In this document: one piece after another, positions 13,080-50,311 of the stretch | How positions within the stretch are numbered: position 1 is the first letter of the stretch | Layout of the letters: each line of letters opens with the position of its first letter | Assembly (NCBI RefSeq): GCF_020271745.1 | Contig: NZ_CP084296.1 | Location: 1,054,001 to 1,118,000 of the forward strand | Source: Providencia alcalifaciens | GTDB taxonomy: Bacteria; Pseudomonadota; Gammaproteobacteria; Enterobacterales; Enterobacteriaceae | DNA length: 64,000 bases | Direction of reading: 5' to 3' | The notes under the pieces: generated by a model | The model's input: the letters and a program-made list of their open reading frames with translations, nothing else | Databases searched by the model: none | Told to the model about the DNA's origin: nothing | Made by a program: the position numbers and the translations under genes

Positions 13080-13155
<76 letters not shown>

Positions 13156-13195
13156 ATTTGGTGGGTACTGCATTTGCTAAAACACTAAGAAAGTT

Positions 13196-13271
<76 letters not shown>

Positions 13272-13311
13272 ATTCCGAAAATAGTGCTGTAGCTAAAACA
13301 TCAAGAAAGTT

Positions 13312-13387
<76 letters not shown>

Positions 13388-30461: not shown

Positions 30462-32183
30462 ATGAATAATAAAATTGCTGATGTTATTTATTTCAACGGT
30501 TATATCTATACCGCAGACAGTCAAGATAGTGTTGTCGACGCTATCGCCTTGAAAGAAGGTTATATTCTTGCAACAGGGACTTCAGATGAATTACATCAAT
30601 ATGTTGGCCCAGAAACCGAGAGCATCGACCTTGAAGGTAAAATGATGATGCCCGGGATCATTGATGGGCATATGCACCCATTTTGGGGTGGCATTCAGCT
30701 GTTCGGCTGCCATCTTAATTACGAATCCCTGACTATCGACCAAATTTTACAACGCGTGCAAGATCACCTCGATAAGGATCCTCGCACGGGCGAAAATGAC
30801 TGGCTAAAAGTTACTGCATGGTTACGCCAAGGCATGTTGCCAGCAGGTATTGATATGTACCGTGAAGATATGGACAAGCTCAATACTAAGCGCCCAGTCG
30901 TCCTGTTTTCTAATGACTGCCATACCCTCTTAGCCAATAGCCGCGCCCTCGAATTATTCGGGATCACCAAAGAAACCCCTGAGCCACCTGATGGCAAAAT
31001 TGGTAAATATGAAAATGGTGAACTCAACGGAATTTTAGAAGATGCGCCCGCTATGCGTGCCGCAGATAGCATTCCGTCTATCCGTGATGAACAAGCAGTT
31101 GAAGTCGCTGAGTTAGTTCAAAAAGTATTGAATCAGCAAGGTGTCACCATGGTGATGGATGCACGCGTTTCCGAGCAGCAATTAGATGCGTTTCACCAGC
31201 TTCAGCAACGTGGCGAACTCACTTTACGCTTCCAAGCTGCACGCGAAATCACACCAGATGATACCCCAAATGTGGCTGCTGTTGCTGCTGCTGTGGATAA
31301 AGCCGTGGCATTCGCCAAGAAATGGCACCAAGCGGAGTGGACACCAACGCCAGGTATCGGTCTACGTAATATCAAAATGTTTGTGGATGGCGTGCTGCAA
31401 TACCCAACCATGACCGCATCATTATTACAGCCATACCGCGTGAATAAAGGCACCGATACAGCCCCTAATTGGGTTGAAACCGATAACTACGGCGACCTCT
31501 ATTTCACGGCTGAAATTCTGGATGAGCTGCTCGAAAAAATCGCCGCTGCGGGTTACGACCCTCACTTGCATACCGTCGGTGAAGGTGCCGTCTCTATCGT
31601 GCTGGATGCCATTGAAAAAATGCGTGCAGCTCACCCAGAGAAAGATATCCGCCCAGGCCTTGCCCACAATGAACTGGTTGATGCCAAAGATTATGCCCGT
31701 TTTGCGCGCCTGAAAACCATTGCGTGTTTATCATTCCAGTGGGCAGCACCAACCCCTGAACTGGCTGCTTTCGAAAAAAATATGCTGGGCGAAACCCGCT
31801 TCCAACAGCTAGAGCCAATCGCTAAGTTTATTGATGCAGGTGCAGTGGTTGCCTTTGGTAGTGACTGGCCAATCGATGATTTTGACGAATGGTATGATTT
31901 AAAAGTCGCCGCAACCCGCCGTGGTCGTGATATTAATGGTCAGCCAGCCCCACGACTGGATAACGACCGCGATATGACCGTGATCGAAGTTTTGCGTTCG
32001 GCAACGATTGACTCTGCTTATGCGCAACATCGTGAAGATGTTTTAGGATCACTTGAGGCAGGTAAATTCGCAGATATGATCGTGCTGGATCGCAATGTAT
32101 TTACCATCCCAGCAGATGATATTGAAAATGTAAAAGTGCTCCGCACCATTGTGGGCGGAAAAACCGTTCATATCGCGTCGTAG
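30462..32183 (+). CDS. YtcJ-like metal-dependent amidohydrolase
   Basis: This 573-residue protein belongs to the Amidohydro_3 (YtcJ) family of TIM-barrel hydrolases that cut amide, formamide or hydantoin-type bonds. Metal and active-site motifs are DGHMHPFWGG (HxH, about residues 69-71), KMFVDG (candidate bridging Lys), HTVGEGA, GLAHNEL and FGSDWPID (metal-binding Asp). The C-terminal strand FADMIVLDRNVFTIP completes the composite beta domain. There is no signal peptide, so it is cytoplasmic. Its partner permease suggests uptake and hydrolysis of an N-acylated or cyclic amide; the substrate is unknown. Confidence 0.87.
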   Translation: MNNKIADVIYFNGYIYTADSQDSVVDAIALKEGYILATGTSDELHQYVGPETESIDLEGKMMMPGIIDGHMHPFWGGIQLFGCHLNYESLTIDQILQRVQDHLDKDPRTGENDWLKVTAWLRQGMLPAGIDMYREDMDKLNTKRPVVLFSNDCHTLLANSRALELFGITKETPEPPDGKIGKYENGELNGILEDAPAMRAADSIPSIRDEQAVEVAELVQKVLNQQGVTMVMDARVSEQQLDAFHQLQQRGELTLRFQAAREITPDDTPNVAAVAAAVDKAVAFAKKWHQAEWTPTPGIGLRNIKMFVDGVLQYPTMTASLLQPYRVNKGTDTAPNWVETDNYGDLYFTAEILDELLEKIAAAGYDPHLHTVGEGAVSIVLDAIEKMRAAHPEKDIRPGLAHNELVDAKDYARFARLKTIACLSFQWAAPTPELAAFEKNMLGETRFQQLEPIAKFIDAGAVVAFGSDWPIDDFDEWYDLKVAATRRGRDINGQPAPRLDNDRDMTVIEVLRSATIDSAYAQHREDVLGSLEAGKFADMIVLDRNVFTIPADDIENVKVLRTIVGGKTVHIAS

Positions 32184-32210
32184 TTTTTTAATGAGTTAAA
32201 ATAGTAAAAA

Positions 32211-32240
32211 GAGCCCCAATGATATTGGGGCTCTTTAGTT
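32211..32240 (+). terminator. Rho-independent terminator after the amidohydrolase
   Basis: The ten-base perfect stem gagccccaat / attggggctc with a three-base loop and following T-rich tract lies 27 bases past the stop. Confidence 0.85.
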
Positions 32241-32267
32241 TGGGTGCTTGATATCCCAACCGGTAAT

Positions 32268-32335
32268 AAGAAAGAAGAAAGAGTGGGGAATTAACTGTTA
32301 TTAAATTGAATTAATTAAAATTAACTTCCCCACTC
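32268..32335 (-). terminator. Probable 3' terminator of the hok mRNA
   Basis: On the minus strand GAGTGGGGAA (32281-32290 complement) pairs with TTCCCCACTC (32326-32335 complement), then TTTCTTCTTTCTT follows. It lies just past the hok stop codon. Confidence 0.5.
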
Positions 32336-32340
32336 AGTGA

Positions 32341-32487
32341 TTAATTGATTTCGTAATCCAATCTCACCTGAACGACTGTATTGTCATTATCAATATGCAA
32401 ATAGCTTAATCTATCCTTTATTAAAAATGAGCAACCCAATATTGTTACGCAAATAGAAACTACAGCTATCATTGCGTACTTCGTCAT
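32341..32487 (-). CDS. hok: Hok/Gef-family type I membrane toxin
   Basis: The 48-residue product begins MTKYAMIAVVSICVTILG, continues SFLIKDRLSYLHI and ends VQVRLDYEIN. This follows the Hok/Gef plan: short basic start, one membrane helix (about 5-24), K-D-x-L motif, then a periplasmic tail ending near DYE/AYE. The usual cysteine of the DSLCEL segment is replaced (DRLSYL). Such toxins depolarise the inner membrane. AAGGAG lies just upstream of the ATG. The mRNA can pair end to end: ACTCAGT near its 5' end (32609-32615 complement) with ACTGAGT just past the stop (32332-32338 complement), like the tac/fbi fold-back of hok mRNA. Confidence 0.78.
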   Translation of the reverse strand: MTKYAMIAVVSICVTILGCSFLIKDRLSYLHIDNDNTVVQVRLDYEIN

Positions 32488-32623
32488 TTCTCCTTGACCT
32501 CTCTTTTATTAAGAGGCACACTCCCGATTGTTGGGTTGGGAGTGTAGCCTCGTTGGTGAATATCACTAACGGGGCTTTTTCTTTCCCAGACCAAAAATAA
32601 ATGCTTGAACTGAGTAAGATCAA
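32411..32623 (-). CDS. mok: Possible mok leader ORF overlapping hok
   Basis: A 70-codon frame starting at TTG 32623 runs through the leader and ends inside hok in a different frame, the arrangement and length of mok, whose translation opens the hok ribosome site in R1. The start codon is weak and the peptide has no recognisable features, so this is tentative. Confidence 0.3.
   Translation of the reverse strand: MILLSSSIYFWSGKEKAPLVIFTNEATLPTQQSGVCLLIKERSRRNDEVRNDSCSFYLRNNIGLLIFNKG
32494..32584 (+). ncRNA. sok: Putative Sok antisense RNA with terminator
   Basis: On the plus strand, opposite the hok leader, TTGACC (32494-32499) lies 17 bases from a weak -10 (32517-32522). Downstream is a strong terminator: agcctcgttggtga pairs with tcactaacggggct (32546-32559 / 32563-32576) with two G-U pairs, followed by a T-rich tract to about 32584. 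The RNA would be about 50-60 nt from near 32530. A second inverted repeat, gaggcacactccc / gggagtgtagcctc (32513-32551), overlaps. The exact 5' end is uncertain, and the promoter -10 is poor. Confidence 0.55.
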
Positions 32624-32879
32624 GCACCCAGCAAAAGAGTAGCAAAGTTAAAATAGCGAAAATATACCTGTTTGCGCTTATCTTAATGAAATATTTTTAT
32701 AATATTAAAATCTAGAATTAAATATAAAATTTCATTTTTCATTATTATTAGTCGTAATAATAATTAATTACTCATTTATTAATTACTTTAAAATAAAGAT
32801 TGATTTTACACCTTTTTTCTTTTCCCTTTTGAAAAAAAAGTTACCGTAAATATTCACCGCGCTTTCATTCATTCAATCA

Positions 32880-33966: not shown

Positions 33967-34746
33967 TTACATACAAAAAGCCGTTCGCCCTAAACCACCA
34001 CAATCACATATAAATGACGGTACTTCCATAGAATCTATTGAGCTTTCTATCATGACGTAACCCTCAGAGGTGGATTCAAAACCTGACTGATATTCAACAA
34101 GAATATCAAATGGTTGAGGCTCAAAGCCGGGGTCAAACTCAGGCTGAATATCTAATATTACTGGATCTTTCATTGCCTTCAATCTATCTAGTTCAATATT
34201 CAGACGTTCTTGATTAATTTCATGCATCAACACTTCAACTTCATAGATCGCTTTGGCTAACTCATCGCTTTTTCTATTAAAATCAGCAATAGGTGTGAAA
34301 ATCATGCCCCTTAATCCGCCATGATTAGTGAAGTCTATTTTCTTGAAAGAATATTCTGGTTTATTCCAAACTTCACTATTCTTTAAATCTTGATTGACTT
34401 CTTTAATATAAAAATCAATTTCAACTTGATTATAAGAGCCATTGTCTTCTTTCAAATCAGTCAGCATAGATTCTTGCTTTAATAACATATTCGAAATTAG
34501 GCTTACTTTCTCCATTTGCTCAACTGAGCGGTTATTTATTTCACTCTCAACCTTATTCATGGTTTTCTTCATTGAGCTAGCATCACGTCGGCGAGAGATA
34601 GACAATTTATCACTCGTAGAATTCATATTTTCTATTGATTTGTATGCGTGACTATTTGCTTCCTCTAATAAGTGATTAACGCTTTCCATCTTTAATTTAA
34701 TCAAATCTAACTTTTCATTTAAACCAGTAAATCTTTCATTTTCCAT
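33967..34746 (-). CDS. Coiled-coil protein of unknown function
   Basis: I do not recognise this 259-residue protein. It has no signal peptide or membrane helix. The N-terminal two-fifths are charged and helical with heptad-like spacing (EKLDLIKLKMESVNHLLEEA; KTMNKVESEINNRSVEQMEK), a mid-region contains another helix (MHEINQERLNIELDRLKAM), and the acidic Pro-rich tail (DIQPEFDPGFEPQPFD) ends in a cysteine cluster (ICDCGGLGRTAFCM). The ATG at 34746 was chosen for the GGAG nine bases upstream. AT-rich codon use and isolation between AT-rich spacers suggest horizontal acquisition. A role cannot be assigned. Confidence 0.75.
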   Translation of the reverse strand: MENERFTGLNEKLDLIKLKMESVNHLLEEANSHAYKSIENMNSTSDKLSISRRRDASSMKKTMNKVESEINNRSVEQMEKVSLISNMLLKQESMLTDLKEDNGSYNQVEIDFYIKEVNQDLKNSEVWNKPEYSFKKIDFTNHGGLRGMIFTPIADFNRKSDELAKAIYEVEVLMHEINQERLNIELDRLKAMKDPVILDIQPEFDPGFEPQPFDILVEYQSGFESTSEGYVMIESSIDSMEVPSFICDCGGLGRTAFCM

Positions 34747-34899
34747 ATGATAAATCTCCATTAATTAATTTAATCAAAATGAAAATAGAGATTATAGTAG
34801 GTAAAAATAAAAAACAAATATTTTAAATATATGTTTAAGATATAAAAATAAAGATAAATTATTCTATATTATATAATATTTTTTGGATTGATTTTGGGT

Positions 34900-49131: not shown

Positions 49132-49336
49132 AAAAAAAAACACCTGCCGAAGCAGGTGTAAATAACAATCAGGTCTACAGACGGATGGTGCCTCACTCAA
49201 CGTTTCGCCCGTTCGTTGATGGTAAGAGGATTAGCTCTTGATCATCTAAATTGGACAATAGGCACCGATAATCGGCTTTGCGTCATCCCTGGGTTTATGA
49301 AGCTAGGCTGTCATAATAAGTGGGATGAGCATCTAC
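49132..49336 (-). ncRNA. glmZ: GlmZ small RNA
   Basis: The minus-strand RNA begins GTAGATGCTCATCCC and ends in a terminator, ACACCTGC-ttcg-GCAGGTGT followed by nine T. Length is about 205 nt (E. coli 207). The 5' part GATGACGCA-AGCC and the central AACGTTGAGTGA-GCACC (about 49190-49207), which pairs with the glmS leader in E. coli, are conserved. With Hfq, GlmZ activates glmS (glucosamine-6-phosphate synthase) translation and is cut by RNase E with RapZ. Its location next to hemY also matches E. coli. Confidence 0.93.
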
Positions 49337-49349
49337 ATAATAGATAATG

Positions 49350-49366
49350 CAGAATGCGTGCCAACT
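49350..49366 (-). promoter_or_regulatory. Sigma-54 promoter of glmZ
   Basis: On the minus strand TTGGCACGCATTCTGCA has GG and GC separated by 10 bases, the -24/-12 pattern of RpoN promoters (TGGCAC-N5-TTGCA), and ends 13 bases before the GlmZ 5' end. A weak sigma-70 -10 (CATTAT) overlaps, as in E. coli glmY/glmZ type promoters. Confidence 0.75.
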
Positions 49367-49500
49367 TTTATATCATTCCAATTTTTTCTTTTCTTACCCC
49401 GTAACTCCCCTACTTTTAAACACTATTTTTATTTCTTACTTATTGTTATTTTTTAACACCGCATTCTTACCAAATCTCATTCTGTTCGATTCAGCTATTT

Positions 49501-49613
49501 TGTCTCAATTTAGAGACAGCTTAGAAGACCTATTGATTTATTCATATAAATCAACCAGTAAAGTGTCTCTTTTTGACGACATGGAAATAGGGGTTTGTAT
49601 CGGATCTGCGACA
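49501..49613 (-). promoter_or_regulatory. Three GlrR-type activator sites upstream of glmZ
   Basis: TGTC-N10-GACA occurs at 49501-49518 and at 49564-49581, with a one-mismatch copy (TGTA-N10-GACA) at 49596-49613. This is the GlrR (YfhA) site pattern, and three such sites are known upstream of sigma-54-driven glmY/glmZ genes. A near-IHF sequence (aatcaaccagtaa, 49549-49561) lies between the first two. The rest of the glmZ to tRNA gap (49337-49822) has only the octamer repeat. Confidence 0.75.
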
Positions 49614-49732
49614 AATATTTTTATTCATTAAAAACATAACGTTACAAGAACACGCAGATAAGAACCATTCTTGTTAAAAGCGATACCAGAGATCTCTAAA
49701 ATAAAGATAATAAAAAAACAGATTCAAGAATA

Positions 49733-49772
49733 AAGATAAGAAGATAAGAAGATAAGAAGATAAGAAGATAAG
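49733..49772. repeat. Five-copy octamer tandem repeat
   Basis: Five perfect copies of AAGATAAG run head to tail in an intergenic purine-rich strand. Such 8-bp arrays vary in copy number by slippage. No gene reads through it. Confidence 0.95.
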
Positions 49773-49822
49773 GATACCGAAGGGGAACAATCAGGTTAGA
49801 AATAGTTAAGGTTTCAAAATGC

Positions 49823-49849
49823 AAAAACCCCGCTCGATTGAGCGGGGTT
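49823..49849 (-). terminator. Terminator of the argX-hisR-leuT-proM tRNA operon
   Basis: The ten-base perfect stem aaccccgctc / gagcggggtt is followed on the minus strand by TTTTTGC, nine bases past the last tRNA. Confidence 0.9.
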
Positions 49850-49857
49850 CTTTAAAT

Positions 49858-49934
49858 TGGTCGGCGAGAGAGGATTCGAACCTCCGACCCACTGGTCCCA
49901 AACCAGTTGCGCTACCAAGCTGCGCTACTCGCCG
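49858..49934 (-). tRNA. proM: tRNA-Pro (TGG)
   Basis: This is a 77-nt cloverleaf with encoded CCA; anticodon loop TTTGGGA gives TGG, and the T-loop is GGTTCGAATCC. It is the last gene of a four-tRNA operon in E. coli order. Confidence 0.97.
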
Positions 49935-49977
49935 AAATTTAACTGCTTAAGGCAGTAACTCGACATCATTTTTTTCG

Positions 49978-50064
49978 TGGTGCGAAAGGGGGGACTTGAA
50001 CCCCCACGTCCATAGGACACTAACACCTGAAGCTAGCGCGTCTACCAATTCCGCCACCCTCGCA
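49978..50064 (-). tRNA. leuT: tRNA-Leu (CAG)
   Basis: This is an 87-nt class II tRNA with long variable arm and encoded CCA; anticodon loop CTTCAGG gives CAG. Confidence 0.97.
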
Positions 50065-50079
50065 ATGTCACAAAAAAAA

Positions 50080-50156
50080 TGGGGTGGCTAATGGGACTCG
50101 AACCCACGACAACTGGAATCACAATCCAGGGCTCTACCAACTGAGCTATAGCCACC
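50080..50156 (-). tRNA. hisR: tRNA-His (GTG)
   Basis: This is a 77-nt tRNA with the extra 5' G of tRNA-His (GGTGGC start), anticodon loop TTGTGAT (GTG) and encoded CCA. Confidence 0.97.
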
Positions 50157-50234
50157 ATAACTTCACTTATTTCAAAGTGTTGTCATACTACTACATACAA
50201 CTTTGTTTTGCCACCGTAGCTTGTCACCTTTTGA

Positions 50235-50311
<77 letters not shown>

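Follow-up and report, generated by a model that had tools for sequence, protein, structure and literature searches.

The 64,000-nucleotide stretch of Providencia alcalifaciens DNA analysed here (the window), which comes from a genome of 4,196,542 bases in the genus Providencia, probably contains a resident chromosomal type I toxin-antitoxin locus of the hok/sok family that operates by the mechanism proposed below. The family itself is known; what appears to be new at this locus is the absence of an ATG-started mok together with an altered toxin motif. We further propose, as a reading that the comparisons somewhat favour, that chromosomal hok/sok loci carry a hypervariable tag, formed by about nucleotides 2-6 of the antisense RNA Sok and the target loop in the hok mRNA, which selection would keep different between sister copies, with each antitoxin restraining only its own toxin, and that in Providencia this goes together with a lost mok and a hok start under direct control.

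The locus lies between an amidohydrolase gene (PF07969; 30462-32183, plus strand) and a 2OG-Fe(II) oxygenase gene (PF13640; 33134-33718, minus strand). A type I hok/sok system had already been claimed here in the preliminary description, and that identity is well supported, by the Rfam model RF01794, homologous Hok proteins including the divergent 48-codon product of the locus, pairing of the mRNA ends, and an antisense -35 element and terminator. Specifically, RF01794 matches the full hok leader (32479-32629, minus strand) with 91.7 bits against a gathering score of 59, the match beginning at 32629 and lying on the hok strand. As a control for orientation, the same model was placed on E. coli K-12, where it matches the hokC strand, opposite the annotated sokC, with 118.3 bits; a match on the hok strand of the window is therefore in the expected orientation, and we rejected the reading that it places Sok on that strand. 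The Rfam entry is named sok, yet its model matches the hok strand, and a pipeline that took over this strand in annotation would put Sok on the wrong one. RF01794 matches are present in 18 of 24 Providencia genomes and in 156 of 392 genomes of the wider family, and one genome of the same family (G032, genus g10) has 14 of them, three in a tandem array with differing Sok targets. Relatives of Hok were found in 19 of the 60 genomes searched and in 2 of 37 genera, and a search of phage records gave no match. Elsewhere in the window, a 264-codon ORF (33967-34761, minus strand) has no Pfam match at E 0.001, and the segments 13083-13387 and 49134-50311 (minus strand) hold, respectively, three equally scoring tRNA matches spaced 116 bases apart and a match to GlmZ with four tRNA matches nearby.

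An extended -10-like element, TGCTACTCT (32636..32644, minus strand), may belong to the hok promoter; it was read from the sequence, in a stretch conserved in a six-genome alignment, and was not listed by a consensus promoter scan. A perfect 12-mer (32630-32619 with 32251-32240) is the longest stretch of complementarity that the two mRNA ends share; it pairs tac, TGGGTGCTTGAT (32619..32630, minus strand), with fbi, ATCAAGCACCCA (32240..32251, minus strand), and its ten core pairs have probabilities of 0.89-1.0 in the predicted full-length fold. In 46 of 51 distinct Providencia loci, the first nine model bases of tac find a partner 3' of the hok stop, with G-U allowed (shuffles: mean 5.3 loci, maximum 11); this fixed nine-base test was adopted after a free-register tac:fbi shuffle test with G-U pairs, which only 5 of 52 loci passed. 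The tac-fbi pairing that marks the hok/sok family is present, although not where it had first been placed: the elements ACTCAGT and ACTGAGT (32615-32609 and 32338-32332) are one of three 7-base complementary end pairs, about the chance level (0.9 per search of that size by our own estimate), and were ruled out in favour of the better 12-mer. Directly 3' of the toxin ORF, where a terminator had been described, a hairpin is indeed seen in the sequence and the predicted fold (32282..32334, minus strand; arms at about 32334-32328 and 32289-32282), and a terminator scan placed the hok mRNA terminator further on, at 32208..32236 on the minus strand, with 13 pairs followed by a T run. The extent of 32268..32640 given earlier is too short, since its left end excludes both the fbi 12-mer and this terminator (32236-32208), and the locus would rather run from about 32204 to 32644. 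Weaker Rfam matches at about 32157-32351, which overlap the hok mRNA terminator, fell below their own gathering scores and were set aside.

Opposite the leader, the elements of an antisense RNA gene can be read from the sequence, as had been claimed from a promoter-like -35 and a strong terminator. The putative Sok promoter (32494..32522, plus strand) has a -35 TTGACC at 32494-32499, a 17-nt spacer and a -10 CACACT at 32517-32522; no sigma-70 promoter was listed for Sok in a consensus scan of the region, because the -10 is weak. A terminator stem at 32546-32576 is followed by a T run (two terminators in the region by scan, against a shuffle mean of 0.3). From the promoter geometry and the terminator stem, Sok is predicted to span about 32530..32584 on the plus strand, the +1 being set 36 nt from the -35, as in the annotated sokB and sokE (35 in sokC). 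At the level of sequence, a -35, spacing and terminator opposite the leader are all present. The Sok target hairpin of the hok mRNA occupies 32519..32544 on the minus strand, with its loop at 32537-32526 and its variable bases at about 32531-32535, opposite Sok nt 2-6; the consensus structure that RNAalifold derived from 43 leaders lacks this hairpin.

The toxin ORF itself, hok (32341..32487, minus strand), has 48 codons with purine boxes upstream, in agreement with the ORF and ribosome site originally described. It does match the Pfam HOK_GEF model (PF01848), the check that had been proposed for it, but with 16.7 bits it stays under the cut-off of 22, and against the NCBIfam HokA model it reaches 24.1 bits (cut-off 89). 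The same genome holds two further hok/sok loci in tandem, whose Hok products exceed the Pfam cut-off with 23.7 and 23.5 bits, and the 48-codon product is 42% identical to a paralogue that passes PF01848. Its named matches are in P. alcalifaciens DSM 30120 and P. rustigianii DSM 4541 (98% identity). The motif DRLSYL recurs at the amidohydrolase-side locus in five genomes (G000, G003, G004, G009 and G017), a tally based on 60 of 72 RF01794 rows, with 11 of 14 G032 rows and one weak G019 row omitted.

At the amidohydrolase site a homologue of the locus, whole or remnant, is found in 15 of 24 Providencia genomes, and the other nine, G015 among them, gave no match within the 2 kb at that place. The term accessory stretch, used for this DNA at first, is thus only partly right, and the locus appears to be a long-standing resident of the site that has been lost or has decayed more than once. 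The copy in G003 has lost the end of hok, that in G005 is a remnant, and that in G022 (L093) resembles the window at its ends (first 78 bases 96%, last 47 bases 85%) and is strongly diverged in the middle, which includes the Sok target and a 48-codon Hok-like ORF; rapid change or exchange of alleles could each account for this. The amidohydrolase gene is whole in 23 Providencia genomes and matched in three pieces, one with stops, in the remaining one (G012:C1:4235144-4236630), where the gene may be broken or the assembly at fault.

One may ask whether the window copy, too, is a decaying relic, with an ORF that is no longer a toxin and a locus that is drifting away. The truncated, diverged and remnant copies and the nine empty sites would fit such a course, as would the Pfam score under the cut-off and the departure of DRLSYL from the family, and many E. 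coli homologues of hok/sok are non-functional according to a review (PMC8309996). We nevertheless consider it unlikely. Synonymous changes affect five codons in the four intact orthologues, and amino-acid changes two (p 0.005 against the site ratio, on small numbers), and the control elements of the locus, namely the end pairing, the Sok -35 and spacing, and the terminators, are intact. Moreover, E. coli K-12 HokB, which the same review describes as pore-forming (PMC8309996), has TLYEL at the position of DRLSYL and lacks the same Cys. It had been suggested that the motif means altered or lost toxicity: altered stands, while lost is weakened by HokB and by the codon changes in the four orthologues, and DRLSYL would seem to be no sign of it. 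The predicted toxin appears to be changed and yet kept in four species, and to call it dead would not be safe.

The arrangement upstream of hok differs from what had been described. A 70-codon overlapping frame had been likened to mok, but it starts with a TTG at 32623, inside the 5' hairpin and away from the Sok target, so that its placement is not mok-like and it was rejected as a candidate. No other mok-like ORF was found to sustain the claimed hok-mok-sok layout. In mok-bearing controls (K-12 hokC and hokB, two IncF loci, an R1-like locus in G025 and two of three G032 loci), the mok ATG lies at -54 to -60 from the hok ATG, and two controls have no ATG there, K-12 hokE (ATG frame at -36) and the third G032 locus (-78 and -32). 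Across 50 distinct Providencia leaders (52 loci) none has an ATG at the mok position (-62..-52), and on this ground we do not class the locus with the R1 layout; five of the 52 loci have an ATG further upstream (-78 to -76) with a frame reaching hok. This is not special to Providencia, since among 45 tandem copies from other genera (drawn from the matches listed) an ATG in the mok range is present in 23 and absent in 19, with no clear hok in 3; four of the 19 have an ATG elsewhere with a frame reaching hok.

The window does keep a GTG frame of 11 codons at -32, which ends across the hok start (ATGA), and a weak mok may therefore persist. The same frame is kept in G003, G004, G009 and G017, and in an IncF plasmid relative a frame with an ATG start stops in this ATGA overlap as well, all of which would suit a classical hok-mok-sok locus with a short mok, started by this GTG, to which hok translation is coupled. 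That such a locus is present seems to us quite improbable, given the lack of an ATG at the mok position throughout the Providencia leaders. In addition, the leftover NTG frames are spread over all three phases, the GTG lacks a ribosome site of its own at suitable spacing, and in four Providencia leaders, of which three precede a full-length hok, no frame that starts with ATG, GTG or TTG reaches hok. Our estimate for a resident hok/sok locus with the mechanism proposed here was nonetheless lowered slightly, because the nearest orthologues keep the GTG frame and other genera also lack an ATG mok. Translation of hok is described as mok-dependent in two papers (PMC4147584, PMC11228461), and natural loci without an ATG mok would make this dependence directly testable. 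In searches of the open-access literature, we found no account of the missing mok or of the loop variation described below.

How hok could be controlled is suggested by predicted folds. The ribosome-site purine box AGAGG (32502-32498) pairs with GCCTCTT in a hairpin at 32497..32517 (minus strand) in minimum free energy folds, lies inside this local hairpin in two of three predicted structures, and the first hok purine box is likewise paired in 48 of 50 distinct Providencia leaders. The stretch CAAGGA at 32496-32491, just before the hok start, is unpaired with probability 0.21 in the full-length fold and with 0.73 and 0.68 in two trimmed forms. On the mechanism that we favour, the full-length mRNA (about 32629 to 32204) would be held closed by tac-fbi pairing, which would also bury a purine box at the hok start, and trimming of the 3' end would take away fbi and open the hok start region. 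Sok (about 32530-32584, plus strand) would begin pairing with the target loop through its 5' tail, and the duplex would block ribosome entry and be cut by RNase III. As there is no conserved mok frame, Sok probably does not act through mok as it does in plasmid R1. Our hypothesis is instead that Sok, in the way that IstR-1 acts on tisB, occupies a stand-by region for ribosomes that lies upstream of the hairpin enclosing the hok ribosome site. The tag that keeps co-resident loci separate would be formed by the bases opposite Sok nt 2-6.

This last step draws on tandem copies. In the genome of the window the three Sok tails are all different, and all 17 tandem pairs from 11 Providencia genomes differ in the loop, with mismatches in 55 of 329 loop-region columns against 67/1538 in the leader, 8/697 around the ribosome site and 29/2550 in hok. 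Because the loop region was first noticed in Providencia, other genera provide an independent test, for which 20 regions with closely spaced copies, some of those among the matches listed, were picked by eye. With the resulting 28 pairs added, 44 of 45 tandem pairs differ in the Sok-target region, the exception (G346) being identical across the 300 bases compared, and divergence is 185/1283 in that region, 219/4007 upstream and 647/8387 downstream (three of 97 loci, none from tandem pairs, were dropped with the target unrecognised). In 14 pairs that are at most 2% divergent elsewhere, one per genome label so that two G007 arrays count once, the target region accounts for 44 of 69 differences, against an expected 9.4% (p 2e-28). 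The other-genera set alone (at most 4.5% divergence, 11 arrays) has 29 of 84 differences there (p 8e-10), which is also where a 28-nt scan has its maximum, with 29 against 11 in the next window of the scan; when pairs of up to 10% divergence are taken in, the contrast is weak (63 against 56). Sorted by position, the mismatches of 25 pairs number 52 within Sok nt 1-8, 18 within nt 9-20 and 5 within nt 21-59, the remaining 98 lying outside Sok; the peak falls at about nt 2-6. This count left out pairs more than 4.5% divergent and six pairs (G032, G291) with no recognised -35, and the positions are approximate, since for a few loci (G376a, G376b, G430) the fixed +1 is clearly misplaced.

The loop could owe its divergence to a mutational hotspot or to relaxed constraint rather than to selection for separate antitoxin specificities, which we regard as a serious though lesser possibility. 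For the loop no pairing partner in cis is required, any change in it appears automatically in Sok, and variation is seen between genomes as well, with different targets in 10 of 17 close pairs. Within genomes, however, 18 of 19 close pairs differ (Fisher p 0.016, for pairs that share genomes and are not fully independent). Moreover, the nucleotides of the peak, about Sok nt 2-6, belong to the 5' tail, which in R1 pairs with the hok loop to start binding (PMC4485353), and in the OrzO/OrzP pair a 3-nt region near the 5' end determines which sister toxin OrzO represses (PMC3919570). We therefore infer from these comparisons that selection for antitoxins that ignore sister loci may have driven the loops apart. 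If so, multi-copy hok/sok loci would be a set of independent modules and not redundant remnants. The purpose of several chromosomal copies is a matter of debate (PMC4147584), and a tag that differs between almost all near-identical neighbours would give a concrete and testable reason to keep more than one.

Among known systems, the window locus resembles hok/mok/sok of R1 and hokC/mokC/sokC of K-12 in its RF01794 leader, end pairing, Sok promoter geometry and terminator, and Hok-type toxin. It differs from both in having no mok ATG, which in those loci lies at about -57 (for R1, via the R1-like genome locus), and in having DRLSYL in place of a Cys-Glu motif. The closest named plasmid Hok proteins, at 50-54% identity, are those on IncF plasmids beside repA (WP_001312851.1), whose type we take to be SrnB of F, and those on Proteus vulgaris plasmids. 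The Proteus vulgaris plasmid loci are, like the window locus, without an ATG mok, whereas the IncF loci have one at -54 to -57 and keep the Cys. With tisB/IstR-1 and timP/TimR, as portrayed in PMC4147584 and PMC11228461, the locus as modelled shares a buried ribosome site, an antitoxin acting upstream and the lack of a coupling frame, although these systems are not homologous to it and stand-by control is, for the window locus, our hypothesis. In the tag, the nearest likeness is to zorO-orzO and zorP-orzP, neighbours that are almost identical and whose antitoxins are set apart by a 3-nt specificity region close to the 5' end (PMC3919570); these have another toxin family and a divergent gene order, and specificity has been tested for them, whereas the hok/sok tag is deduced from sequence.
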